Virus record (IMG/VR): IMGVR_UViG_3300035670_000734
Span: 1 to 35,521 of that record
Direction: 5' to 3' (one strand)
From: a virus
DNA: 35,521 bases
Shown here piece by piece: positions 4,540 to 18,339 of the stretch. Each line of letters opens with the position of its first letter. Positions within the stretch are counted from its first letter, which is position 1. The notes beneath the pieces are model-generated. The model did not search any database. It worked only from the letters and a program-made list of their open reading frames with translations, and was not told where the DNA came from. Both the position numbers and the translations under genes were made by a program.

Positions 4540-5499
4540 TCACCTCACGCAGATGCGCAGTTCGTCGTTGCCGGTGGACGGCACCAGGCGCAGGTCGTAG
4601 CCGATCATCCGGCGGCCGTCGACGTCCTGCTTTGTCGGATTCAGCAGCTGCACCGTTGGCGCATGCAAGATGACCACCGACCCAGCAGCGGTGCCATGCT
4701 GTATGCCCACGCTCTGCGTGGTGTTCGCAATGACGTTGCTCATGAGCGACACCTCTTGCGCCGCGGTCAACTCCAGCTCGATCTTTCCCGTCATCTCGCG
4801 CTGCACGATGTCCACCGAGTCTCCGCCGACGAGCGGGGTAAATTTGACGTCGTTGCCTGACATGACTTCGATACCGCGGCTGGGGTAGGCGGTGCCGGTG
4901 CCAAGCGTTCCGGTCGTGTACGCGCAGCCGAACGTGAGGTCGTTCGTGTTGGCGTCGGTCACCACCGCTGGCGGCTTGAATTTGCTGTACGTCGGCGTCG
5001 GGCTTACAACGGCGCTGATCCCGTCATATTTGCCGATGAACTTGAACGACAAGATCGGCTTCGCACCCAGCGGCAGCTTGACATCAACCGACCCCATGCA
5101 ACCCGCGGCCTTGTGCAGCACACCGTCGTCGTAGTAGTAGATGTAGACCGAATCCAGCGACGCCGACTTCGGCAAATACTCAACTCGATTTCCGGCCGTA
5201 ACGGTCTCGGCAAACGCGCAGGCTTTGAGCAGCGGCCCCCAGCCTGGCGCAGTGCCCGCGGTCCCAGATGACTGCAGCTCGACGTCGAAGCTGATCTCAA
5301 CGTATGCCGTGCCAACCAACTGCTCGCTCGCCCCAAAATAGGCGAGCACCAAATCCCGGTTCACGTTGCTGGCGTTGAGCGGGTTGACGCTTATGTTTGA
5401 GACGGAAATTGCGTTGTCCGCACCAGTGGGCGTCGGATCCACGCCGTAGGTGACTTCGGTCTTGGCCAGAATGAGGGACTTGCGAACGTAACGAGACAT
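4540..5499 (-). CDS. Tail tube protein (319 aa)
   Basis: Major tail subunit. The N-terminus MSRYVRKSLILAKTEVTYGV is the familiar opening of siphophage tail tube proteins ('lla K-E-TYGtdptPt'). It continues with ADNAISVSNISV and a beta-rich body with GWGPLLKACAFAETV, also typical of this family. The ATG at 5499 follows GGAGAGCGCC, a usable Shine-Dalgarno. The gene is immediately upstream of the chaperone pair, confirming the role. The length is somewhat above the usual 200-250 residues, so the C-terminal 80 residues (from about DIVQREMTGKIELELTAAQE) may be an added surface domain. Confidence 0.88.
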   Translation of the reverse strand: MSRYVRKSLILAKTEVTYGVDPTPTGADNAISVSNISVNPLNASNVNRDLVLAYFGASEQLVGTAYVEISFDVELQSSGTAGTAPGWGPLLKACAFAETVTAGNRVEYLPKSASLDSVYIYYYDDGVLHKAAGCMGSVDVKLPLGAKPILSFKFIGKYDGISAVVSPTPTYSKFKPPAVVTDANTNDLTFGCAYTTGTLGTGTAYPSRGIEVMSGNDVKFTPLVGGDSVDIVQREMTGKIELELTAAQEVSLMSNVIANTTQSVGIQHGTAAGSVVILHAPTVQLLNPTKQDVDGRRMIGYDLRLVPSTGNDELRICVR

Positions 5500-5511
5500 G
5501 GCGCTCTCCGG

Positions 5512-5826
5512 TTATTGGCTCTGGACGACCACGTCGAAACTGCGCTCGGCCGTGCGGCCGCCGGCGGTCGTGATGCGGTTGGTCACCCGATAGGTCGTGC
5601 CCGCGCTCCCGCCGCTGAGCCACACCGTGGCCTTCAGCGTGGAGTGCGTGGCGTTGTTCTGCGTGAGGCCGGCCGGCACGGTCCAGCTGCTCGAGGCGAT
5701 CGTGTCGGCGCCCGAGTCCGCCAGCCAGGCGGTCCAGTCGATGGTGTAGTCGAGGACGGCGTCGGGATCCTTGGCGATCCACGCCACCGAGGTCGCGCCG
5801 CGCAGGGTGAAGTCGTCGAGCCTCAT
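5512..5826 (-). CDS. Phage fibre-tail adaptor-like protein (104 aa)
   Basis: The ATG at 5826 overlaps the stop of the repeat-protein gene by 4 nt (ATGA). The sequence DPDAVLDYTIDWTAWLADSG, then ASSSWTVPAGLT, ATVWLSGGSAGTTYRVTNRI and TTAGGRTAERSF matches the small 'fibre-tail adaptor' family found in many phages, a single beta-sandwich of about 100 residues. In those phages it sits next to fibre or virion-surface genes and is thought to join a fibre to the tail or capsid. Here it closes an adhesin-type cluster and precedes the tail tube gene by 12 nt. Family recognition is good; the precise attachment point is inferred. Confidence 0.8.
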   Translation of the reverse strand: MRLDDFTLRGATSVAWIAKDPDAVLDYTIDWTAWLADSGADTIASSSWTVPAGLTQNNATHSTLKATVWLSGGSAGTTYRVTNRITTAGGRTAERSFDVVVQSQ

Positions 5827-6638
5827 CGTCCGAGCACCTCCAGCGTCCTGGTGCCACCCGGCACCTCGAGGATGCGGCCGCCGCCCAGCACCTCGAGCGC
5901 GCGCGCATAAGGCGCCGCGTAGTTGCTCGGGATCAGCGGCACCGGGCCAAAGGCCTCGGCGCTCGCGATCCCGCCGGCGGACTGGATGAACACCTGCGAG
6001 CCGCGCACCAGGGCGTCGCCGAAGGTCTCGGCACTCGCGATCGCGCCCACGCCGGCGATGGTGACCACGCCGGGCCGCACCTGGCCGGAGCCGAACGCCT
6101 CGGCGCTGGCGATGTTGCCGGCGGCCGAGACGCTGACCGCGCCAGGTGCCACGGTCGAGCTGCCGAACGCCTCGGCGGAAGCAATGGCCCCGGCGGACTG
6201 GATCACCGCGCCGCCCGAGGTCACCAGCGCGGCACCGAAGGCTTCGCCGCTGGCGATGTTCCCCGCCCCGGCGATCGTCGTGACGCCCGCCGCGACCGTC
6301 GAGCTGCCAAAGGCCTCGCCGCTGGCAATGGCCCCAGCCGACGACACCGTGACCGCGCCAGGCGCGAGCGTGGCCGCGCCGAACGCCTCGGCGCTGGCGA
6401 TGTTGCCCACCGCCGACAGCAGCGTCCCGCCCGCGCTGACGACCGCGTCGCCGAACGCCTCGGCACTCGCGATGTTGCCGGCCGAACTGATGGTGACCGC
6501 GCCGCGGGCGAGGGTCGAGCTGCCGAAGGCTTCGGCGGAGGCGATGTTGCCGGCCCCGATGATGGTCTGCGCAGACGACCCCGCCGCAGGCAGGCCCGCC
6601 CACGGCAGTTCAGCCCACGGCGCTGCAGCCCATGTCAC
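5823..6638 (-). CDS. Tail/fibre protein made of nine 24-residue repeats (271 aa)
   Basis: After a 26-residue Trp/Pro/Ala-rich leader the protein contains nine consecutive repeats of exactly 24 residues (about residues 27-242), each built on AG-x-IASAEAFG followed by a short hydrophobic beta pattern such as SSTVAPGAV. A 29-residue tail follows with three LEV-GG-R turns. No indel breaks the register, so repeat expansion or contraction by recombination is likely. Regular short beta repeats of this type suggest a beta-solenoid or spiral fibre shaft. It is coupled by 4-nt overlaps to both neighbours (the adaptor and the 148-residue protein). I do not recognise a named family; a structural role in a fibre is inferred. 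Confidence 0.7.
   Translation of the reverse strand: MTWAAAPWAELPWAGLPAAGSSAQTIIGAGNIASAEAFGSSTLARGAVTISSAGNIASAEAFGDAVVSAGGTLLSAVGNIASAEAFGAATLAPGAVTVSSAGAIASGEAFGSSTVAAGVTTIAGAGNIASGEAFGAALVTSGGAVIQSAGAIASAEAFGSSTVAPGAVSVSAAGNIASAEAFGSGQVRPGVVTIAGVGAIASAETFGDALVRGSQVFIQSAGGIASAEAFGPVPLIPSNYAAPYARALEVLGGGRILEVPGGTRTLEVLGR
5913..6560 (-). repeat. 72-bp period tandem repeat, nine units
   Basis: The DNA behind the nine 24-residue repeats: 648 bp, period 72 bp, units recognisable by GCCTCGGC-GC near the middle of each on the plus strand (the AEAFG codons). Units differ at many third positions, so the array is old or under selection at the protein level rather than a fresh slippage product. Confidence 0.85.
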
Positions 6639-7081
6639 TCAGGCCACCCACCGATGGTCAGTTGCTCAACCGCCTCGACCGTGGTGCAAGCGTCCACATC
6701 GGCTTCCAGCAAATCAGAGCGAGCGCGGACCTCTTTGATCCACGCCCAGACGGCCTGGATCTGCTGCGCCTCCGGGCCGGTGGTCTGGCCGAGGCTGACC
6801 AGCTCGACCGCGCGGGCGGTCATGTTCTGCTGCTGCCACTCGGGATAGCGGGCGAGGATCTGCGCGCGGGCGGCGGTTTTGATCTCGGTTTTCTTGGCGG
6901 CTTTGAACTCATCCAGCGACGGCATCACCCAATCGCTGCCGGTCCACTGTGCCGTATGGTGCGGCCTCGGCGGTGCGGGCTGGTAGTAGTCAGCTTTCGG
7001 GTTGCCGTTCGCGACCCACATGGCGTAGGTATCGTCGTCGATTTCGACCAGTTGCCCGGTGGGGGTGTAGTAGAGGCTCAT
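6635..7081 (-). CDS. Fibre assembly / tail chaperone-like protein (148 aa)
   Basis: The N-terminus MSLYYTPTGQLVEIDDDTYA, the PPRPHHTAQWTGSDWVMPS segment, then a helical region with KTEIKTAARAQILARYPEWQQQNMTA resembles small proteins encoded next to phage fibre genes, which carry a short beta N-domain and a helical region that includes 'kA-I-a-yP-wkQ-N'. These act as fibre assembly or attachment factors in other phages. The ATG at 7081 shares one base with the stop of the LamG gene, and its stop overlaps the repeat protein start by 4 nt. Confidence in a fibre-related role is moderate; the exact family is not certain. Confidence 0.6.
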   Translation of the reverse strand: MSLYYTPTGQLVEIDDDTYAMWVANGNPKADYYQPAPPRPHHTAQWTGSDWVMPSLDEFKAAKKTEIKTAARAQILARYPEWQQQNMTARAVELVSLGQTTGPEAQQIQAVWAWIKEVRARSDLLEADVDACTTVEAVEQLTIGGWPE

Positions 7082-7701
7082 CAGTAGACTCTCGGGTGCG
7101 TCGAAACGGTCGCGGTGTTGTTGTTCGTCAACGCCAATGCGGCACGAAAATCAGCAATGTCGCGCACAAGCGGCGCGTAGAACAATAGCGACTGCGGGCG
7201 AATTCGGCGCGGGCTAAAACCCTTTGCCAACGCAGTTATTTCAGCAGCGGTTAATGCGACATTCCATATCGCGCACTCAGCTAAATCACCATCAAAATAT
7301 CCGTCTGTCGATGATCGCGTTCTCGCCCCAATGTTCAAATTTGTCGGGTTTGCAGTTTGCGTTAACGATGACGTGTTGGGGGTTCCGGCAACACCATCGA
7401 CATACGCTGTGCGCGATGCATTTGATGTAAAAACAGAACAAGCGTGGCGCCATTGGCCTGTTGTAAAACTGCTTGACAGCGCGACTGCACCAACAGTGTT
7501 GCCACGTTGCTCTGCGCGCACTTGTAAACCGCTAATGTCACCAAAAAAATGGTCGGTCAGTGCAGTCAACGACTGCGTCATCCATGCCTCATATCCGCTC
7601 GATCGGTCCGTGTCGAACCACGCCGAATAAGTCATTGGGACTGCGGTGACGACAACACCGCCCGACAGGTATTGGCTCGTGCCGTTGAATTCATACGCCA
7701 T
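7081..7701 (-). CDS. LamG / concanavalin A-like lectin-fold virion protein (206 aa)
   Basis: Shows the LamG-like jelly roll pattern: MAYEFNGTSQYLSGG, MTYSAWFDTDRSSGYEAW, SSSFTTGQWRHACSVFTSNA, RTAYVDGVAG, NLNIGARTRSSTDGYFDGDL and AECAIWNVALTAAEITALA, ending in LLFYAPLVRD. This order (edge strand, W-H, YVDG, iGar-....fdG-lae--iwn-aLt--Ei) is diagnostic of the fold. Such domains bind surface sugars and in virions usually serve as adhesins. Base composition is markedly lower in GC than its surroundings: I counted 116 G+C in 240 bases at 7201-7440. A GTG at 7704 is an alternative start; I chose the ATG at 7701, one base overlapping the upstream stop. Confidence 0.8.
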   Translation of the reverse strand: MAYEFNGTSQYLSGGVVVTAVPMTYSAWFDTDRSSGYEAWMTQSLTALTDHFFGDISGLQVRAEQRGNTVGAVALSSSFTTGQWRHACSVFTSNASRTAYVDGVAGTPNTSSLTQTANPTNLNIGARTRSSTDGYFDGDLAECAIWNVALTAAEITALAKGFSPRRIRPQSLLFYAPLVRDIADFRAALALTNNNTATVSTHPRVY

Positions 7702-8685: not shown

Positions 8686-9051
8686 TCACTGCCTCGTCTT
8701 GGTTGGCTGCTGCACGCGCACGGTTGGCGTGCCGAAACATTCCGCGCTCTTGACCCCGCCCGGCATGTAGCGGCGCAGGTCGGAGTTCCAGGCGGCCTCC
8801 TTGCGGGCCTCGTCCAGGATGCGCGGGTCGGACGACAGGCCGAAGTTGCTGCCGGCGCGCAGCAGCACGGCGCTGTCGGCGGCGATGCGCTCGGCCTGGG
8901 CCCACTCGTCGGCAAGCAGGCCCTGCTGGCGCAGCTGCGCACCCAGCTCGACCGCGACGCGGCCCTCGAGCTGGATGACGAAGCTCTTGCCGCCGTCGTC
9001 GAACTGGACGAGCACGTGCTCGCCTTCCCTGCGGATCCTGGTGGTGAGCAT
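8686..9051 (-). CDS. Unknown virion-region protein (121 aa)
   Basis: I chose the ATG at 9051, which overlaps the preceding stop by 4 nt (ATGA), over an upstream ATG in the same frame. The protein starts MLTTRIRREGEHVLVQFDDG, has a beta opening, then a helix with VAVELGAQLRQQGLLADEWA, and a basic C-terminus ending TKTRQ. A motif SDPRILDEARKEAAWNSDLR recurs in small phage proteins from tail/virion regions. No enzymatic motif. A minor virion or assembly function is inferred from position alone. Confidence 0.6.
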   Translation of the reverse strand: MLTTRIRREGEHVLVQFDDGGKSFVIQLEGRVAVELGAQLRQQGLLADEWAQAERIAADSAVLLRAGSNFGLSSDPRILDEARKEAAWNSDLRRYMPGGVKSAECFGTPTVRVQQPTKTRQ

Positions 9052-9458
9052 CAGAGCTTGAAGATCTTGTTGCTGCCGTTGTCCCACTGGGCCGTGATGT
9101 CGCCCCCATTCGGCGTAACAGGCAGGCCGGTGGCCGTATCGATGTTGCAGATCAGCCGCGAGGTCGACTCGGTGCCGGTGTGCTTGTAGATGTCGATGCT
9201 CTCCGCCTGGTCGCCGCTGACGGCCGTCCAGGTGAGGTCCGCCGCGTCGGCCACGCCGTTGGTCGCGGTCTTGCCGCTCATGGCGGCGGAGGTGGCCACG
9301 CGGGAGGCCGCGGCGCGGTCGTCGAGGTTGTCGTCGACGGCCAGGTCGATGGTGTCGTCGGCCTCATCGATGAGGATGGAGCGGATGTCGTTGGTGTCCC
9401 AGTCGATCGACCCATCGAGGAAACCCTCGCGGCCCTTGTCGTACAGTGCGTTTGCCAT
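9051..9458 (-). CDS. Conserved virion protein, MANALYDKGREGFL family (135 aa)
   Basis: The opening MANALYDKGREGFLDGSIDW followed by an 'IR-iLiD--DdtiDl--ddnLdDr-a-sRvA-S' beta/loop pattern and a C-terminal WDNGSNKIFKL is a widely seen phage structural protein, generally found near head-tail or tail-tube genes and sometimes detected in virions. The ATG at 9458 follows GAGGA at good spacing. It is likely to decorate the virion; no biochemical activity is expected. Coupled to the next gene by ATGA overlap. Confidence 0.75.
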   Translation of the reverse strand: MANALYDKGREGFLDGSIDWDTNDIRSILIDEADDTIDLAVDDNLDDRAAASRVATSAAMSGKTATNGVADAADLTWTAVSGDQAESIDIYKHTGTESTSRLICNIDTATGLPVTPNGGDITAQWDNGSNKIFKL

Positions 9459-9468
9459 GTGGTCCTCG

Positions 9469-9921
9469 TCAGAGTCGCTCGATGGATCGCTCCGCGGTGC
9501 GGTAGGCGATCACGTAGGTTTTGGTGATGGCGGCGAGATCCTCGGCCATGCCATCGCGCAGGCGCCGGGTCGGGCCCTCGGTGATGTCCTCGGCCAGGCC
9601 GTTGAGCCACAGGCCCGCCACGGTCTGCGCGCCGAGCAGGCGGTTGTGGGACTCGACCAGGGCCGCGTCGGCCTGGGCATATGGCGCGACGCCCTTGGCC
9701 AGGACGGTGATCTCGACCTGCAGCCGCCGACCCAGAATGCCGATGAGGATGCGGTCGGGCGTGTCCTCGTCGCCGGCCTCGACGACGAGGCAGGGCATCT
9801 GCGTGGCGCGCCGGGCGTCGACGATGTCGCGGTACACGCGCGCGGCCGGCACGCTGTCCAGCGGCGGCACGGTGAGCAGGGTGATCACCTCGTCGACGAT
9901 GTCCTGCGCTGCGCTGCTCAT
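9469..9921 (-). CDS. Tail terminator / minor tail protein U-like (150 aa)
   Basis: Position just after the head-tail joining gene, size about 150 residues, and the pattern 'Aq-ivd-v-tLLt--p---vpa-rVyr-i---r-a---PclvVe-gde' fit the tail terminator class (lambda U / 'phage tail terminator-like'), which caps the assembled tail tube and joins it to the head. The conserved central part RLQVEITVLAKGVAPYAQAD has the expected strand-then-helix shape. The ATG at 9921 overlaps the preceding stop by 4 nt. Confidence 0.7.
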   Translation of the reverse strand: MSSAAQDIVDEVITLLTVPPLDSVPAARVYRDIVDARRATQMPCLVVEAGDEDTPDRILIGILGRRLQVEITVLAKGVAPYAQADAALVESHNRLLGAQTVAGLWLNGLAEDITEGPTRRLRDGMAEDLAAITKTYVIAYRTAERSIERL

Positions 9922-10196
9922 GCGGCCCTCAGCGTGGCGCGCTTGATGCGCCCGTCGTCGAGCAGCGAGATCTCGCGCACGTGGTAGGCGGCGCCGTCGA
10001 CGATGACGGCGTCACCGTGCGCCAGCCCCGGCCAGGTGTCGGTGTTGAGGGTGATGGCGGGCTCCTCGTCGATGACGAGGTCGCCGAGGGTGTTGCGCGT
10101 GGGCTGGTCGAACAGCACCCTCGCCTCGAGCGCGCCCCAGCTGGCCGGCACGCCGAAGTCCACGAACATCGCGGCCATGTTCTCGACCATCGCCAT
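9918..10196 (-). CDS. Head-tail joining protein FII-like (92 aa)
   Basis: A short protein with MFVDFGVPASWGALEARVLF at the start, then DGAAYHVREISLLDDGR near the end, the layout of lambda FII-like head-tail joining proteins: an N-terminal 'F-dFG--a-W-' helix/strand and a beta barrel with PGLAHGDAVIVDG. The ATG at 10196 shares one base with the stop of the methyltransferase-glycosyltransferase gene (TGATG), so that accessory gene is translated in line with the connectors. Confidence 0.75.
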   Translation of the reverse strand: MAMVENMAAMFVDFGVPASWGALEARVLFDQPTRNTLGDLVIDEEPAITLNTDTWPGLAHGDAVIVDGAAYHVREISLLDDGRIKRATLRAA

Positions 10197-11734
10197 CAGG
10201 CCGCGACCTCCTCGGGCTGGAGGTGCTCGAGGTAGGTCATCACGGCCGCCTCGATGTCCTCGGCGCGCACCACCGCCTGGCACATGGCCGCGCCGGTGGC
10301 CGGGTCGACCTGGCAGTGCTCCATGGTGCGCTGGATGCGGTGGCAGGGGTGGCAGGCCACCACCTTGGGCGACACCGCCACGGTGTTGTGCCAGTCGCGC
10401 GTGAGGTTGTCCTCGGAGGAGTGCGACAGCAGCACGACCTTGAGCGGCGGCTCGTAGGCCACGGCGTTCACGATGGCGCTCTCGGTGCCGACGACGACGT
10501 CGGCCAGGGCTGCGAAGGCCATGGCGTGGCGCACGTCCCAGTCGAGGCCAACAATGCGGCCGTGCGTGCCGGGCCGCAGCTGGGCGCCGCGCAGGTCACC
10601 CAGCACGATGGCGTGGATGCCGCGGGCATCGAGCAGGTCGATCATCCGCTGCACGTGCGGCCAGTGCTTGGGCGGCGTGCTGCCATTGGGCGCGATGACG
10701 ACCACGCGGCCGGGGTAGCGGGCACGCTCGATCACGGCCCAGCCCTGCTCCTCCAGCGTGGGGTAGAACTTCTGCCGCGGCTCGGCATCCTCGGGCAGGC
10801 CCGCCGCCTGGTGGAGCGCCTGCAGGTAGTTGGCGCTGCCGAACATCGCGCGACGCATGCCCTCGGGCCGCCAGAAGTCGGGCTCGTTGCTGGCCGGCAG
10901 CAGCCGGGTTTCGACGACGCCACACAGGTTGATGAAGCGGTCGTACTTGCGTTCCTCGTACACGAAGAACCCCAGCAGCCCGGCGCCGTCGTAGAGCTGC
11001 GGCACGACGATGATGCGGTCGACGTTGGGGTCGTGCCGCAGCATGGCCTCGCCAGCCTCCTGCGTGTACAGCGTGACGTGGTAGCCCTGCTCTTTGATGT
11101 GGCTGATCACGGAGCTGGCCCACAGCGCATCGCCGAGCGCGCCCATGCGCACGATGGCGGCGGTCTTGGCGGGCTTGGGCGCGCGCCAGGACTGCAGCCG
11201 CTGTCCATCGGTGCGGCGGCGCCAGACCTGCAGGAAGGAATACTCCCGCCCGCCGGTGCGCACCTCGTTGCGCTCGAGGTCCCAGCCGCCTGGGGCCTGG
11301 GCCATGGCGCCGATGATGTCCTCGGGCGCGAAGTCGTGCTTGTGGTCCACGTTCGCGCCGGGCTGGCCGATGCGCGGGTAGTGGTCGCGATGCGGCAGGT
11401 ACAGGATCAGCGTGCCACCCGGGCGCACCAGGCGCCACCACTCGCGCAGGGCCGCGCGGTAGTCGTCGATGTGCTCGAGCGTGTGGCTGGAGAACACGCA
11501 GTCGAACTGGTAGGACCCGAACACCTCGAGGTCCGAGGCGTCGGCGTTGATGTCGGCCTTCACGGGCGTGCCGAACAGGTGTACGTCCTTGAACGAGTCG
11601 ACGCCGACAAAATGCGGCCACACCTTCTCCGCGCCACAGCCGATGTCCAGGCAGCGGCCGCGCACGTAGGGCACCAGCTCGTGGCGCACCTTCGCGGACT
11701 CCTGACCCTGCGGGTCGTCAGCGCGCCAGGTCAT
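10196..11734 (-). CDS. Fused SAM methyltransferase + GT9-like glycosyltransferase (512 aa)
   Basis: Residues about 10-172 form a class I methyltransferase: motif I CLDIGCGAEK, then FDCVFSSHTLEHIDDYRAAL and WWRLVRPGGTLILYLPH. From about 190, a GT-B glycosyltransferase like the ADP-heptose:LPS heptosyltransferases (GT9): AIVRMGALGDALWASSVISH, IAPNGSTPPKHWPHVQRMID, and the donor-site region LADVVVGTESAIVNAVAYEP. Four Cys at the C-terminus (CHPCHR, HC, MC) may bind metal. It sits between the capsid-side and connector genes with 4-nt and 1-nt overlaps to both, so it is made with virion parts. It could glycosylate and methylate a virion protein, or alter host surface sugars. Domain calls are firm; the substrate is unknown. 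Confidence 0.85.
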   Translation of the reverse strand: MTWRADDPQGQESAKVRHELVPYVRGRCLDIGCGAEKVWPHFVGVDSFKDVHLFGTPVKADINADASDLEVFGSYQFDCVFSSHTLEHIDDYRAALREWWRLVRPGGTLILYLPHRDHYPRIGQPGANVDHKHDFAPEDIIGAMAQAPGGWDLERNEVRTGGREYSFLQVWRRRTDGQRLQSWRAPKPAKTAAIVRMGALGDALWASSVISHIKEQGYHVTLYTQEAGEAMLRHDPNVDRIIVVPQLYDGAGLLGFFVYEERKYDRFINLCGVVETRLLPASNEPDFWRPEGMRRAMFGSANYLQALHQAAGLPEDAEPRQKFYPTLEEQGWAVIERARYPGRVVVIAPNGSTPPKHWPHVQRMIDLLDARGIHAIVLGDLRGAQLRPGTHGRIVGLDWDVRHAMAFAALADVVVGTESAIVNAVAYEPPLKVVLLSHSSEDNLTRDWHNTVAVSPKVVACHPCHRIQRTMEHCQVDPATGAAMCQAVVRAEDIEAAVMTYLEHLQPEEVAA

Positions 11735-11925
11735 CCGCGCTTCTTCCGCGTGGCGGTCTCGGCCTCGACTTCGACCTCGGGCTCGGCCGCCGGCACCAGC
11801 ACGGCCTTGTTCATCGCCACCAGCTCCATCGCCAGCGACTTGGGCAGCTCGATGCGGCTGCCCCGCTCATGCAGGGTGCCGGCCACGTAGACGCCCGACA
11901 GCACCTCAACCTGCAGCTTGCTCAT
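11731..11925 (-). CDS. Small head-region protein (64 aa)
   Basis: Begins MSKLQVEVLSGVYVAGTLHE at an ATG (11925) behind GGAGAT. A short beta-rich core is followed by an acidic stretch and a basic tail ending KKRG. Its position directly after the capsid gene corresponds to lambda FI or a small decoration/assembly factor in other phages, and many siphophages encode a similar 'V--G-y--G---a-Gs-i-lP---A--lva--kA' protein here. It is coupled to the methyltransferase-glycosyltransferase gene by a 4-nt overlap. Confidence 0.65.
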   Translation of the reverse strand: MSKLQVEVLSGVYVAGTLHERGSRIELPKSLAMELVAMNKAVLVPAAEPEVEVEAETATRKKRG

Positions 11926-11973: not shown

Positions 11974-13788
11974 TTAGGCCGTGATGCCGGTGCCGAGCGA
12001 GAACGCGCCCGGGTAGCGCACGCCGACGTCGACGGTGTAGAACGCCCGGACGCCCACGATGCCCGCGGCGAAGTTGGCATACGGATTCGCCTCGACCTCG
12101 AGCACGCCCCACTCGCCCACCACCACCTGGCTGAAGTCGCCCATGAGCAGCTGGCCGCTGGCCATCTGGTTGGACGACATCGCGCGCAGGCCCTCGATGT
12201 TTCCGTTCAGCAGGTTGCCCTGCCAGATCGGGGTGTCGGTGTTGCTGAAGCGCGCCTTCTGCTTGAGGATGGCCGCGATGGCCGGCGTGGTGACGTAGCC
12301 GGACCGATCGGTCAGCGCGTTGGCGGCCGCCGCGTCGGTCTGGAACTCCAGCACGTTGCCGTAGCTGACCGTGCCGGTCGTGATCGTCACGCCGCCGATG
12401 CCGGACGTCGCGGTGATGCCCGCCGGCTGGCCGCCGGTGCCCGGGCCGCTGATGCCGGCGGAGTCCACCGCCAGCGCGACCACGGCCGCCAGGTCGTTCA
12501 TCACCAGCATCTCGGCGTCCGGGCTGCTCTGCAGCAGCAGCTGCCGCGAGATCTCGGTGTAGCCGCCGACGTTCTTCGGCGTGAGCGTCATCTGCCCGAT
12601 GACCATCTGGCTTTCGGTGATGGCGGTGGCTTCGTTGGCGAGCCAGTAGCCGGTGCCGGCCGCGGTCTGGCGGGGCACGGCGACCGAGCCCTGCAGGCCG
12701 CTCAGGCGCGTGGCGCCCATGTTGAACAGCACCGAGCGGTTGCGCAGCAGCTCAATAAACCCCACGTTGCCGGTGCCGACCAGGAAGCCGCCCATGGTCG
12801 AGGTGCCGACGATGAGGTCACGCTGCTGGATGTCGAGCGGCACGAAAAACGTGTGCTCGTTGACGTGCCGGCCCATGCGTCGCGCGATCTCCTGCGAGGC
12901 CTCCAGCTCGAGCCCGGCCTTGTCCCAGGACTTGTTGATGACGGCGTTGATGGCCCGCATCATCGAATACTTCGCGGTCTCGCGGCGGCTCAAGTCGAGC
13001 TTGGTGCGGGACTCGCTGGCCTTGCTGCGGTCGGCCATGAGCTTGACGACTTCCTTGCCGGCGTCGTCCAGGCTGGTGCCCGCATCGATCCAGCGCTGCA
13101 GCGTCGGCACTTCAACCTGATACTGCGTGGCCAGGCGCTGCAGGGCAGACACGCGGCCGCGCTCGAGCTGGGCGGCAGTCTGATGGTCGAGGACCTGGAT
13201 GTCGGCGCTTGCGCCCGCCGCGGCGATTTCGTCAGCCATGATGGCTCCTTTCGAGGCTGCGGCAACAGCCGCGGAATTGTCGATGCTGCGGACCGTCACC
13301 TCGCGCTCCTCCGCCTCGGCGGATCGGCCGACGCCCACGCTCGGGTCGGCAGGCACGGTGACGATCGAGATCTCCATGGGCTCCCAGTCGGTGGCCCGAT
13401 AGGTGTCGGTCTTGGGCTCGACGTCGTAGCTGTGCACCCGATACATCAACGAGACATTGCGCAGCACGTTGTCCAGCACCATCCCGAACACCTCGTCGGC
13501 GCGCGCCGTCTTGGCGAAGCGCACGTCGGCATACCCGCGCCTGTCGCTGCCGATCTCGGCGCCCTCGACGACGCCGATAACGTCGTTCATGTCGTGGTTG
13601 AACAGCAGCGGGGCGCCGTTGTTGAGGCGGTCCATCCGGACCGCGGCCTTGCCGTGGTCCAGCACTTCGGCGCCGAACCAGCGGTCCACCGGGGTCTCGC
13701 TGCTGAACGACAGGCGCAGGGTGCGGGCCTCGGCGTCGAGCGCGGCGGCGCGCACCTCGGCGAAGCGGTGCAGGGGTTTTAACTTCAT
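11974..13788 (-). CDS. Prohead protease-major capsid protein fusion (604 aa)
   Basis: One frame carries two functions usually encoded separately. Residues 1-165 are an S78/U35-type prohead protease: LLFNHD with the likely catalytic His65, NVSLMYRV with the likely Ser113, and WEPMEISIVTVPADPSVGVG. Residues about 185-280 are a helical delta/scaffold domain. Residues about 310-604 are an HK97-fold capsid protein (VGTSTMGGFLVGTGNVGFIE, SVAVPRQTAAGTGYW, LTPKNVGGYTEISRQLLLQS, C-terminal GVRAFYTVDVGVRYPGAFS). The protease should cleave scaffold and itself during maturation. An internal ATG at 13239 with a strong Shine-Dalgarno may give the capsid part alone. The start overlaps the portal stop (ATGA). 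Confidence 0.92.
   Translation of the reverse strand: MKLKPLHRFAEVRAAALDAEARTLRLSFSSETPVDRWFGAEVLDHGKAAVRMDRLNNGAPLLFNHDMNDVIGVVEGAEIGSDRRGYADVRFAKTARADEVFGMVLDNVLRNVSLMYRVHSYDVEPKTDTYRATDWEPMEISIVTVPADPSVGVGRSAEAEEREVTVRSIDNSAAVAAASKGAIMADEIAAAGASADIQVLDHQTAAQLERGRVSALQRLATQYQVEVPTLQRWIDAGTSLDDAGKEVVKLMADRSKASESRTKLDLSRRETAKYSMMRAINAVINKSWDKAGLELEASQEIARRMGRHVNEHTFFVPLDIQQRDLIVGTSTMGGFLVGTGNVGFIELLRNRSVLFNMGATRLSGLQGSVAVPRQTAAGTGYWLANEATAITESQMVIGQMTLTPKNVGGYTEISRQLLLQSSPDAEMLVMNDLAAVVALAVDSAGISGPGTGGQPAGITATSGIGGVTITTGTVSYGNVLEFQTDAAAANALTDRSGYVTTPAIAAILKQKARFSNTDTPIWQGNLLNGNIEGLRAMSSNQMASGQLLMGDFSQVVVGEWGVLEVEANPYANFAAGIVGVRAFYTVDVGVRYPGAFSLGTGITA
13237..13251 (-). promoter_or_regulatory. 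Internal Shine-Dalgarno and ATG inside the protease-capsid gene
   Basis: On the minus strand AAAGGAG (13251-13245) lies 5 nt before an in-frame ATG (13239-13237), Met184 of the fusion, exactly between the protease and the scaffold/capsid part. Initiation here would give a 421-residue capsid protein without protease. The downstream residues MADEIAAAGASADIQ look like a normal protein start. Nearby codons do not need this AG-rich stretch. Confidence 0.65.
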
Positions 13789-15401
13789 GCGTTGCTCCTG
13801 AGCCGCACGATGCGGCTGTCATCGGCGGAGTCGTCCTCGTTGTCGGACGACGGCTCGGGCGGACTGGGCGGATCCGCAGGCTTGGCAGGCTCGGGCGAGT
13901 CGTCGGGCACGGGCGCGCCGGTGGCCAGGCGCTCGGGGTCGGTGTCGAACTCGAGGTCCATCTCGTCCATGAGGTCCAGCTCGGCGCGGCGCTGCTCGAG
14001 CACGTCCTCGATGTCCGCGCCGCCGGCGGTTTGAGCGATGACGTCGGCCACGGTGGTGAACCCGCAGCGCACCGCTTCCTTGTAGGCCGCGACCTCGCGC
14101 GTGGGGTCGACCCAGCTCCAGCCGCGGGCCTTGAACCGCGCGGCCTCGTAGCGCTCGCGGTTGTCCAGGTACTCGGCCACGCCCAGGCCGCGCACGGCAC
14201 CGGCCAGCACGGCGGCCTCGAGCCACACGCGGTGCAGCTCGGCGCGGAACGAACGGACAAACCAGCCCTGCAGGATCCGCCAGAGGTCGCGGTCGTCCAG
14301 CAGCGCCAGGCGCGACGAGGAGTAGTTGGACTGGCTGTAGTCGCGGGAAAGCGACTCGTAGGACACGCCGACCCCGGCCGCCACCTCGCGCAACATGAGC
14401 CGCATGAACGGATCCATGTTGGGGTTGGGCCGGTTGGGGTTGTTCATCACGATGTCCCAGCCGGGCGGCAGCTGCTCGACCATGCCGGGCTCGATGGCCA
14501 CCTGCCGCTGGTCTGCCTCCTGGCCGTCGGGCGGCAGGGGCGAGTTGTCCGGGGTCTTGATAAACGCCATGTAGCTGGCCGCGCCCCTGGCCGCGACGAT
14601 CTCGGCTTCCGAGTAGCCGTCCATGTCGTTTAGCCGGCGCGCGGCCGCGTGCAGCCAGGGCTCGCCCCGGGTCTGCGGCCAGCGGTCCACCAGATACAGG
14701 TGCATCATGTCGGCCGCCGGCACGCGCACCAGCTGGTCGGGCCCCCCGGCACCGACGGCGACGTCACCCGGGTGCACCTGGTGCAGCCAATACGCCACCG
14801 GCCGGTGAAAGCCGTCGACCTCCACGCCCATGCGCACGGCGTTGCCGTTGGGCGCGCGGCCGATGCTGTAGTGGTCCGCCAGACGCTCGGGCTCAATCAC
14901 CTCGAGGGCCAGAGGCACTGCGCTGCCCGGCATGGCGACCCGATGCAGGCGGATGAGCACTTCGCCCGCTTCGAAGATCTGCCCCATGCAGAAGCGCTCG
15001 AGGTCGGGGAAGTGCAGCTTGCCGCCGGTGTGGCAGTTGACCGCGCGCGCCCAGCGCGTCCAGGCGGTCTCGATGCCTTCGTTGACGGCGCGGTCCATCC
15101 GGCCGCGCGGGAACTTGACCTGCGCCTGCAGGCCGATGCCCGTGCCGACTACGTTGTTCACCACGATGACCTTGGCGCGCTTGGCGTAGGACGCATCGCG
15201 CACCAGGGCTCGAGAGCGGCCCCGCAGCCGCTGCAGCCCGCCGATCAGCTCCGCGTCGGCCGAGCTGTTGGACGACTGCCAGCCCGCCGTCAGGCGCCCG
15301 CCAGCCGCGCCGTGGTAGCCGCGCACCGACAGCCGCGGCATGCCGCCGCGCTTGGCCCCCGGGGCGATCCACGCCGCCAGCCGCTCGCGCCAGGTGGCCA
15401 T
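13785..15401 (-). CDS. Portal protein, lambda B family (538 aa)
   Basis: Dodecameric portal at one capsid vertex, through which DNA enters and leaves. Recognisable lambda-portal segments: LRGRSRALVRDASYAKRAKV with VVNNVVGTGIGLQA, GEVLIRLHR, ALEVIEPERLADH, the GYSEAEIVAARGAASYMAFI helix, and GVSYESLSRDYSQSNYSSSR, the signature loop-helix of this family. I use the ATG at 15401, which shares one base with the upstream stop; an in-frame extension upstream lies within the neighbouring gene and is arginine-rich shadow. The acidic C-terminus (EDDSADD) is common in portals. Confidence 0.92.
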   Translation of the reverse strand: MATWRERLAAWIAPGAKRGGMPRLSVRGYHGAAGGRLTAGWQSSNSSADAELIGGLQRLRGRSRALVRDASYAKRAKVIVVNNVVGTGIGLQAQVKFPRGRMDRAVNEGIETAWTRWARAVNCHTGGKLHFPDLERFCMGQIFEAGEVLIRLHRVAMPGSAVPLALEVIEPERLADHYSIGRAPNGNAVRMGVEVDGFHRPVAYWLHQVHPGDVAVGAGGPDQLVRVPAADMMHLYLVDRWPQTRGEPWLHAAARRLNDMDGYSEAEIVAARGAASYMAFIKTPDNSPLPPDGQEADQRQVAIEPGMVEQLPPGWDIVMNNPNRPNPNMDPFMRLMLREVAAGVGVSYESLSRDYSQSNYSSSRLALLDDRDLWRILQGWFVRSFRAELHRVWLEAAVLAGAVRGLGVAEYLDNRERYEAARFKARGWSWVDPTREVAAYKEAVRCGFTTVADVIAQTAGGADIEDVLEQRRAELDLMDEMDLEFDTDPERLATGAPVPDDSPEPAKPADPPSPPEPSSDNEDDSADDSRIVRLRSNA

Positions 15402-15970
15402 CAGCCGAACCTCGCGAACAACCTGCGCGGGTTGCCCAGGCCGCGCGCCACGGAGTCGAAGCTCGCCTCGTCCTGGACCAGCTTGCGCCAGTATTCGATC
15501 TGCTGGACGAAGTCCTTGCTGGAGCGGAACCACATCTCGCGCCCGCCGATGGTGTAGCGCTGGACCAGCCCCTGGCCGTTGACCACGTAGTCCTTGAACG
15601 CGGTCTCCAGCTGCTCGAGGATCTGCCGCGCGTTGGACCGGGCCTCGAAGCCGGCGGCCTGCGCCGCGAGGTCGGGCCGGACGACGATGGTGCCGCTATC
15701 GACCGTGTAGCGCTCGCCGCTGCGCTCGACGTAGGCCGCCCAGGCATAGGTGCCCGGGGCCCAGTTGTCGGTGGTGCTGGCCGCGACGTTGACCAGGTGG
15801 TCGGCGCCGGAGGCGGTCGACACGATGTCGACGTTGCCGGCGGCGTTGATCAGGCGGTACTTGAGCACCCAGCCGTCAGAGGCCGGATAGTCGGCCAGCG
15901 AGCGCGTCCACTTGACGGTGTCGCCGGCAACGACAAAAGCAGGTTCTGCGGTCGGGATGGGTGCGGCCAT
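15401..15970 (-). CDS. Head protein with beta N-domain and gpW-like C-terminus (189 aa)
   Basis: Residues 1-100 look like an immunoglobulin-like beta sandwich (AGDTVKWTRSLADYPASDGW, YAWAAYVERSGERYTVDSGT). The C-terminal 80 residues are helical with GREMWFRSSKDFVQQIEYWR, which resembles the C-terminal 'YSvGdRsv----L-dlr-qI-yW--ev' part of lambda gpW-type head completion proteins. It lies between a Mor-like gene and the portal, where lambda has W. I infer a head completion or virion-surface role; the gpW resemblance is a pattern judgement. Confidence 0.6.
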   Translation of the reverse strand: MAAPIPTAEPAFVVAGDTVKWTRSLADYPASDGWVLKYRLINAAGNVDIVSTASGADHLVNVAASTTDNWAPGTYAWAAYVERSGERYTVDSGTIVVRPDLAAQAAGFEARSNARQILEQLETAFKDYVVNGQGLVQRYTIGGREMWFRSSKDFVQQIEYWRKLVQDEASFDSVARGLGNPRRLFARFG

Positions 15971-16287: not shown

Positions 16288-18339
16288 TCAGCGCCTCCAT
16301 CCGTTCACGAATCCGCCCGGCCGCCGCACGGGCACACTCTGTCGCGGCGCCGGCTGGGCAACTGGCAAGTCCGGCTTGTCAGTTGCGACCGCCTCGACCG
16401 GCGTTGCCACCTGGTCGTCGGGCCACTCCGCCGGCGCCGCCTGGTCGAACAGGTCCCGCGTCTCCACGCGGGCCATCCACTTCGCCCACTCGGCCTCGCG
16501 CCACCGGTCCAGCCCGGCCCAGTGCGCGCCTGCGAGCGCGTACACCGCGCAGTCCAGCGCCTCGTTGCGCCGGCCTGCGGGCTTGACCCACTCCAGCCGA
16601 GGCCGACCCTTCACGTAGCGCGAGACCAGCCGCTCCGCCGTCAGCTGCTCGAACACCTCCGGCGGCAGCGAGCGCGACAGGTGCACGTACCCGGGCCCCG
16701 GCGTGGTGATGCGCAGCCGGCCGTAGATCTCGGACTTCGCCGTGTCCGTGCCCACCGGCCAGAGCTTCACGCCGCGCTTGGCCCGCTCCCCGCGCCAGGT
16801 CACGTCCTGCTCGGTCGGTTTGCCCAGCACCGCCTTGCCGGTCTGGCTCGAGCCCTTCACCGCGTGCACGTTTTCGCGCGCGTGCGCCCGCGCGTAGGCG
16901 TAGACGGCCTGCGTGTGATGACCGCCCGAGTCGATCATCGCCGCGAGCAACGGCACCGTGCGGCCGCTCACGTGCGCGATCGGGCGGCGCCGCGCTGCGC
17001 TCAGCCGCGCCCACGGGCTCTCGGCATCGGCCTCGGGCAACGCCGGGTCGCCGTAAATCACCAGGCGGTCGACTAGCTGCCGCTCGAGGCCGCGACCCCA
17101 GGCCCAGGTGTAGGCCTCGAGGCGGTCGGCCTGGACGTCCACGCCCATCGTGGCCACGCACAGCCCCCAGGTCACAACGCCGAGCGCGAGATCCTCCGCC
17201 CGGCGCCGCAGCTGGTGCTCGTCGGCCTTGTCGCCCTGCTCCTCGAAGGTCTCGGCCAGCCGCGTGTTCACGAACACGCGCAGCAGCGTCATGTCGCCCG
17301 AGCGCGACGCCACCATGGCCGCGTGCCACTCGGCCACCAGCTCGGCCCAGGACACCCAGCCCAGCGGACTGTAGAGGCTCGACAGGTGGAAGCCACGCAC
17401 CCGCCCGCCGGCAGCACCAGGCGCCTGCGCGACCCAGCGCCCCGCCGCCAGCATCGCCGGCTTGTGGTGCTCCGAGATCTCGGCCGCACAGCGTCGGCAC
17501 ACGTAGCGGGCCGAGCTGGGCTCCGGCGTCCCGTCGGGATGGCTCGACCACTTGATCCCGTAGGGCAGCGACGCGCCCCACTCCAGCGCCTGGTGCTCGC
17601 CGCAGTGCGGGCACGGCACCTCGTACCGGCAGCGATCCGACGCGAGGTAGGCGGCCTCGATGCGGCTGAAGTCGCGCGTGGTGGGGGTCGAGGTCTTCAG
17701 ACGCTTGCGCCGGGCGAATGTGGTCTGCCGAGCCTCCGCCAGCTTGATCGGATCGCCTTCTCCGTCGGCATCGAGCGGATAGGCGTCAATTTCGTCCAGA
17801 AACAGGTCTCTGACCGGCATTGACCGCAATCCGGCCGCCGAATTGGCCCCTGCGATGGCCAGGAAGCCGCCCGCGAACTCTTTCAGCAGCGTGGTGTTCG
17901 CGTCGTCGCGGGAGCGGTTCTCCCGGACCTTGCGCCGCAGCGCCTCCGACTCCTCGATCGCTGGCGTCAACCTCTGCCGGCTGTAGCGCTTGGCCATGTC
18001 GATGGTCGGCTGCACCACCATGCACGGGCCCGGATTCACGTCGATGAGGTAGCCCAGCCAGCTGGTGCCGATGGTGGTCTTGCTGGTCTGAGCGCCCCAC
18101 TGCAGCACGACCTCCTCGACCGGCGAATGCCTCGACAGGCAGTCCATCACCTCGCGCGCGTAGGGCGTCCGCGCGGCCCGGTACGGCCCCGGCTCGGCCG
18201 AGTCCTTGCCCGACAGCACCCGATTGCGCTCGGCCCACTCGGTCACCGTCATCCTGGCCGGCGGCGCCATGAACTCGCGCCACAACCCATCGACCAGCTC
18301 GCCGGCATCCAGCAGGTCCCAGTCCTCACGCGCGCCCAT
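16288..18339 (-). CDS. Terminase large subunit, GpA family (683 aa)
   Basis: Packages DNA using ATP and cuts at cos. Motifs: Walker A-like QWGAQTSKTT at 80-89, Walker B RDLFLDEIDAYP at about 177-188, a zinc site CPHCGE...CRRCAAE at about 242-285, and nuclease-domain segments GVDVQADRLEAYTWAWGRG, AAMIDSGGHHTQAVYAYARA and ALDCAVYALAG. Order and length (about 640-700 residues) fit lambda gpA-type terminases, implying cos-type packaging. The start at 18339 overlaps the small subunit by 14 nt. Confidence 0.95.
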   Translation of the reverse strand: MGAREDWDLLDAGELVDGLWREFMAPPARMTVTEWAERNRVLSGKDSAEPGPYRAARTPYAREVMDCLSRHSPVEEVVLQWGAQTSKTTIGTSWLGYLIDVNPGPCMVVQPTIDMAKRYSRQRLTPAIEESEALRRKVRENRSRDDANTTLLKEFAGGFLAIAGANSAAGLRSMPVRDLFLDEIDAYPLDADGEGDPIKLAEARQTTFARRKRLKTSTPTTRDFSRIEAAYLASDRCRYEVPCPHCGEHQALEWGASLPYGIKWSSHPDGTPEPSSARYVCRRCAAEISEHHKPAMLAAGRWVAQAPGAAGGRVRGFHLSSLYSPLGWVSWAELVAEWHAAMVASRSGDMTLLRVFVNTRLAETFEEQGDKADEHQLRRRAEDLALGVVTWGLCVATMGVDVQADRLEAYTWAWGRGLERQLVDRLVIYGDPALPEADAESPWARLSAARRRPIAHVSGRTVPLLAAMIDSGGHHTQAVYAYARAHARENVHAVKGSSQTGKAVLGKPTEQDVTWRGERAKRGVKLWPVGTDTAKSEIYGRLRITTPGPGYVHLSRSLPPEVFEQLTAERLVSRYVKGRPRLEWVKPAGRRNEALDCAVYALAGAHWAGLDRWREAEWAKWMARVETRDLFDQAAPAEWPDDQVATPVEAVATDKPDLPVAQPAPRQSVPVRRPGGFVNGWRR

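Follow-up and report, generated by a model that had tools for sequence, protein, structure and literature searches.

Why does a bacteriophage carry a gene for a sugar-modifying enzyme in the middle of its head operon? The question is raised by the window analysed here, a stretch of 35,521 nucleotides that makes up IMG/VR record IMGVR_UViG_3300035670_000734. An initial annotation, made from the letters of the DNA, had read one of its genes as a methyltransferase fused to a glycosyltransferase of family GT9 and translated in line with capsid and connector genes, and had proposed either modification of virion proteins during assembly or a change of the host surface late in infection. The window also contains integrase, CI-like repressor, terminase and tape measure genes; as the integrase and the repressor are found alongside head and tail genes, we consider the phage temperate, and its gene set is of the siphovirus type.

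The head module is ordered as terminase, head-tail joining protein, portal, protease/capsid, small gene, fusion, Hc1 and tail terminator (Table 1), past which lie more tail genes and then the tape measure gene. The in-line arrangement is confirmed at both ends of the gene: its start codon shares four nucleotides (ATGA) with the stop codon of the small upstream gene, and its own TGA stop shares one (TGATG) with the start codon of the Hc1 gene. According to the gene caller, overlaps of 1 or 4 nt with the next gene are present in 40 of 59 non-redundant relatives. As a side observation, the gene that follows the tail terminator (9051-9458, minus strand) encodes a phrog_644 protein of unknown function. 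At the DNA level this gene is about 67-68% identical to one from mycobacteriophages of the Marvin type, which is surprising given how distant the hosts are.

Table 1. Positions in the window of the fusion gene, its two domains and the surrounding head and tail genes.
Feature	Position	Strand	Evidence
Methyltransferase-glycosyltransferase fusion gene, 512 aa, ATG start	10196..11734	-	ORF, AF2 model, relatives, dN/dS
Class I SAM-methyltransferase domain, residues 1-178	11201..11734	-	Pfam, Foldseek, invariant columns in 53 relatives
GT9-type GT-B glycosyltransferase domain, residues 188-512	10196..11173	-	hhalign with WaaF, Foldseek, invariant columns
Small gene (64 aa) separating capsid gene from fusion	11731..11925	-	4-nt overlap with fusion
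Fused prohead protease-major capsid protein, HK97 type	11974..13788	-	Pfam Peptidase_S78 2e-9, Phage_capsid 1e-36; phrog_617 1e-131
Portal protein, lambda family	13785..15401	-	PF05136 7e-103
Head-tail joining protein	15401..15970	-	phrog_5774 7e-34
Terminase large subunit, gpA type	16288..18339	-	Protein-family match
Head-closure Hc1 (Phage_attach)	9918..10196	-	PF05354 9e-11; 1-nt overlap with fusion
Tail terminator	9469..9921	-	phrog_4204 9e-15

The N-terminal half of the protein is a class I SAM methyltransferase with a Rossmann-like fold, on both domain and motif grounds. Residues 29-111 match Methyltransf_11 (PF08241, E = 4e-12), and motif I (LDIGCG) and GVD are conserved together with the acidic post-motif residue D46; D30, G34 and D46 are invariant across 53 diverse relatives. 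Other signatures of the domain are SSHxLEH, LPHRDHYP and DHKHDF, and Foldseek on the structural model described below matched methyltransferases separately from the other half (3l8d, for example, at 5e-7).

Assigning the C-terminal half was not as straightforward: it passes no curated cut-off of any family, and the GT9 label of the initial annotation thus needed testing. HMMER gave weak support, as the window protein did not reach PF01075, the best value in relatives was 0.0097 and TIGR02193 scored 0.033; neither the window protein nor four relatives had a match above the curated PF01075 cut-off. An AlphaFold model built with an alignment of 53 diverse sequences (pLDDT 93.5, pTM 0.90) contains both enzyme folds together; an earlier AF2 model from 5 sequences was poor (pLDDT 57) and was discarded. 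When the model was submitted to Foldseek, GT9 structures ranked first, with 3tov (4e-13), WaaF (1psw, 3e-11) and WaaC (6dfe, 1e-8) followed by TibC, and the best viral fold match was a single-domain GT9 protein of an uncultured Caudovirales, A0A6J7WHE7 “RfaF” (8e-14). A profile-profile alignment by hhalign against WaaF sequences drawn from beta/gamma-proteobacterial genomes reached 97.9% probability (E = 3.9e-13) and was colinear over 302 columns, end to end; the signature (GD, K-WP and the acidic residue) and the four cysteines line up in it. The GT9 active-site signature is present, with D202 after G in the N-lobe (RxGxxGD202), K356 before WP and the acidic E418 in the C-lobe; these three residues and the four cysteines (C461-x2-C464-x9-C474-x10-C485) are invariant in the 53 relatives. 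By fold and profile, the C-terminal half is a divergent GT9-type transferase, one that fails the PF01075 cut-off, and the two-domain reading stands as first made. Both halves are under purifying selection (dN/dS of 0.12 for the methyltransferase and 0.18 for the glycosyltransferase, relative to the nearest relative, L002) and both are probably active.

What such an enzyme acts on is less easily read from its family. The initial statement that GT9 enzymes normally build LPS is too narrow: TibC and the BAHT enzymes, which also turned up as fold matches, attach heptose to proteins, TibC being an O-heptosyltransferase of a related fold class (PMC4358343). The family does, all the same, lend weight to the second option of the initial annotation, a modification of the host surface late in infection (LPS core or other glycan) directed, for example, against re-adsorption of progeny to debris or against competing phages: the GT9 enzymes WaaC and WaaF typically transfer heptose to the LPS core, and the WaaF profile match spans the full length with the four cysteines in register. 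The genomic position of the gene points elsewhere.

Relatives in IMG/VR number at least several hundred. A search seeded with the methyltransferase returned 208, of which the best 80 were kept, and one seeded with the glycosyltransferase returned at least 496, again with the best 80 kept; the two sets have many contigs in common and are not independent. Among the newly cut loci of the glycosyltransferase-seeded set (from the best 80 of at least 496), the two domains are fused in 70 of 71, the exception beginning at a contig edge, and the Hc1 gene comes no more than 1.2 kb after the fusion in 57 of 71. A capsid gene lies at most 1.2 kb upstream in 63 of the 66 loci of this same selection with enough upstream sequence; in two of the 66 it is downstream of the fusion, which is then upstream of the portal gene and has not left the packaging/head module. 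The random scatter of homologues that the initial annotation had named as an argument against its reading is therefore not what the neighbourhood survey finds. In the methyltransferase-seeded set (best 80 of 208), 44 of 59 non-redundant loci have the capsid gene at a distance of one or two genes on the upstream side, and 56 of 59 have it no more than six genes away; in L076 and L078, the fusion lies between terminase and portal, again inside the packaging/head module. The capsid proteins themselves form two groups unlinked at E < 1e-8, 66 of them protease-fused (phrog_617) and 15 short ones of 330 aa (phrog_1357), each with its own downstream genes, and the fusion is beside the capsid gene in both. 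The capsid gene is thus its one constant partner.

Phage genes that modify the host surface usually sit in lysis, tail-fibre or attachment-site regions, whereas the fusion keeps to the capsid-closure segment with either of the two capsid types, and its coupled translation late in expression fits a target in the virion better than one on the host surface. One has to keep in mind that viral collections leave out host LPS loci by design, so that finding the relatives on phage contigs proves nothing by itself; what carries weight is where the gene sits within the phage. Searching 50,697 phage isolate records by tblastn with three glycosyltransferase domains (window, L070 and L087) gave no match, and whole-protein matches among phage isolates concerned the methyltransferase half only. 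Among 399 genomes of the order to which the Aromatoleum host belongs, the gene was found only in that Aromatoleum genome, and it is thus not a host housekeeping gene.

Two of the loci have peculiarities of their own. In the prophage of Aromatoleum anaerobium LuFRes1 (L087), the capsid gene (5103-7100) is interrupted by a group I intron (6115-6399; RF00028, E = 6e-15), with an HNH-like ORF on the opposite strand at 5426-6112, and an IS630-like transposase ORF (9565-10296, minus strand) comes after the methyltransferase-glycosyltransferase gene; given the intron and the transposase, this prophage may be defective. In a Burkholderiales MAG (L086, 923-2379), the fusion is read as two ORFs, of 423 aa and a shorter second piece, and this copy is thus disrupted or mis-assembled.

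When the search starts from the capsid instead, 56 loci extend far enough downstream, of which 15 have the fusion and 41 lack it. It is therefore dispensable for the assembly of this head type, and the segment between capsid and Hc1 genes is an accessory site. The same segment is occupied in other phages by SGNH-hydrolase-like and Ntn-hydrolase-like proteins, judging by eye from their sequences; examples of the latter, also read by eye, are at 3303-3893 in L160 and 3493-4086 in L169 (MTCVVALRHEGVIYMGCDSAGVGG...). In three phages without the fusion (L186, 3272-4771; L213, 7035-8570; L206, 6609-7331), a protein N-terminus resembles by eye the small protein encoded upstream of the fusion, and in L186 and L213 this N-terminus appears joined to an SGNH-hydrolase-like domain. 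From these sequences, the small domain of the type encoded at 11731-11925 in the window looks as if it were a virion anchor.

The optional character of the gene, carried by 15 of 56 capsid relatives, would also suit a moron that serves some end other than the virion, or an enzyme acting on DNA or on a small molecule. However, a free moron should not hold one neighbour across hundreds of phages, the scan of window proteins recognised none as the product of a base-modification gene, and the fold is that of GT9, which we take, from knowledge of the family, to be distinct from the DNA-glycosyltransferase types. Comparison with phage DNA hypermodification is natural, as many phage glycosyltransferases act on DNA that is already modified, a point discussed in PMC12619734; we nevertheless hold such a target, or a moron, to be highly improbable here.

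The distance matrices of the capsid and the glycosyltransferase correlate (r = 0.82; partial r = 0.57 given the portal, against −0.21 for the portal given the capsid). For Hc1, whose gene adjoins the fusion on the opposite flank, the correlation is weaker (0.62), but this protein is short and noisy. As the fusion gene adjoins the capsid gene, linkage accounts for part of this covariation, and synteny too can arise from it. That the glycosyltransferase tracks the divergence of the capsid protein is contrary to a host-surface target. No position with Ser/Thr, Asn, Tyr, Cys or a charged residue distinguishes carrier capsids from those of phages without the fusion; the host-surface option gains from this missing protein acceptor, and yet, set against position, coupling and covariation, we find it unlikely. 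Virion-protein modification is the better of the two options initially proposed: the gene is beside the capsid gene in hundreds of phages with two capsid types and covaries with it, and the capsid is the acceptor that these patterns suggest.

Another virion component might be modified instead: a decoration protein, the tail tube, or the product of the small upstream gene. That gene shows translational coupling to the fusion, both in the window and in several of the relatives, and in short-capsid relatives a gene of about 130 aa and of unknown family adjoins the fusion, a spot where a decoration protein could lie; the tail tubes of mycobacteriophages are likewise glycosylated according to PMC12619734. 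The small protein family, however, occurs in only 23 of 85 loci (19 of 59 non-redundant ones), yet the fusion persists without it, and the constant partner is the capsid gene rather than other virion genes, which makes this alternative improbable in our view.

Some neighbours bear on the sugar itself. A TylF-type O-methyltransferase or a second methyltransferase-like protein is near the fusion in 19 of the 71 glycosyltransferase-seeded loci (from the best 80 of at least 496); the former matches a sugar O-methyltransferase family (PF05711, 3e-19), and the latter, of about 200 aa, looks like a methyltransferase by eye with no Pfam match. Such extra enzymes are as would be expected if the sugar receives methyl decoration. 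The closest cellular cousins of the architecture are in Aurantiacibacter (L091, 7716-9871) and Novosphingobium (L092, 7797-9883), where a methyltransferase of the same subfamily seems by eye to be fused to a GT9-like N-lobe and a further segment, and the GT9 C-lobe is a separate overlapping ORF (PF01075, 7e-14 and 3e-12), a split version of the same design. A PfkB+cytidylyltransferase gene (HldE-like, ADP-heptose synthesis) near the L091 cousin weakly favours ADP-heptose as the donor, a guess from the family and one distant neighbourhood.

Taken together, we lean towards a role in virion-protein glycosylation, with the capsid as the likeliest target and a sugar that is plausibly heptose and would be O-methylated by the same enzyme. 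The fusion enzyme would be made late, translated along with capsid and connector proteins; its GT9 half would take the sugar from an activated host donor, plausibly the ADP-heptose of the LPS-core pathway, and transfer it to one of the structural proteins of the phage's own virion, the likeliest being the major capsid protein encoded just upstream. The methyltransferase half would then O-methylate the attached sugar, the order of the two steps being part of the proposal, and the extra methyltransferase-like genes of some relatives would supply further methyl groups. The purpose might be to shield or to stabilise the virion. Counting against this scheme are the acceptor residue, for which the capsid comparison gave no candidate, the optional nature of the gene, and the scan of window proteins, which recognised no gene for sugar-nucleotide synthesis.

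We put forward, more tentatively, a broader possibility, namely that phages infecting Gram-negative bacteria have a module dedicated to capsid glycosylation, in which the fused enzyme would add and O-methylate a heptose-type sugar during assembly and co-evolve with the capsid protein, and which would be widespread in uncultivated phages and have been missed for want of isolates carrying it in the collection searched. If so, sugar-coated capsids would be common in environmental phages of Gram-negatives rather than a peculiarity of mycobacteriophages, with a bearing on virion stability and on the recognition of phages by antibodies and lectins. The compact pair of capsid and fusion genes would then offer a direct test, in E. 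coli, of protein glycosylation by a GT9-type enzyme.

Among known enzymes, the glycosyltransferase half is closest by fold to WaaF and WaaC, with which it has in common a full-length colinear profile, the GD/K/acidic signature and the four cysteines of most beta/gamma-proteobacterial WaaF examined; it differs in being phage-borne, beside capsid genes and attached to a methyltransferase, and in having Glu (E418) where these have the Asp of NDSG. The BAHT protein O-heptosyltransferases (TibC, AAH; PMC4358343) have in common with it a heptosyltransferase-type GT-B fold, the catalytic Asp of the N-lobe and four cysteines near the C-terminus (C339/342/358/370 in TibC, C461/464/474/485 here), and the protein substrate that characterises them is what we propose for the fusion. 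Their N-terminal beta-barrel is nevertheless absent, with the methyltransferase in its place, no autotransporter gene lies beside the fusion, and Foldseek places LPS-type GT9 structures above TibC. Membership of the BAHT family was rejected for lack of the barrel, and the cysteine motif occurs in ordinary WaaF as well. We also dropped the cysteines as proof of a TibC-like iron finger, as the same four, with a shorter spacing, occur in nearly all beta/gamma-proteobacterial WaaF examined; found in ordinary bacterial WaaF, they do not point to a protein substrate. The sphingomonad proteins (L091, L092) resemble the fusion in joining a methyltransferase of the same subfamily to a GT9-like N-lobe, and differ in their separate C-lobe ORF, chromosomal setting and, for L091, the HldE-like gene nearby; the single-domain A0A6J7WHE7 (296 aa) matches the glycosyltransferase half only.

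As for phage systems, the initial remark that no function is assigned to this arrangement was right for the enzyme and too sweeping for the process. No description of a phage GT9 enzyme or of a capsid glycosyltransferase/methyltransferase fusion was found in the literature searched, where the fused GT9 form thus looks undescribed. Glycosylated virions as such are already known: PMC11256854 and PMC12619734 report, citing Freeman et al. 2023, that mycobacteriophage capsids and tails are glycosylated. In those phages (Che8, Rita and others), as proposed here, phage-encoded glycosyltransferases are thought, according to the same papers, to target the phage’s own capsid and tail proteins, and a phage-encoded glycosyltransferase is likewise what the window contains. 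Virion glycans have been reported in mycobacteriophages, whereas for the fusion they are predicted; and the mycobacteriophage glycosylation genes are described, for Maravista, as lying near the 3' end of the genome (PMC11256854), whereas here one fused GT9-methyltransferase enzyme is encoded inside the head operon.
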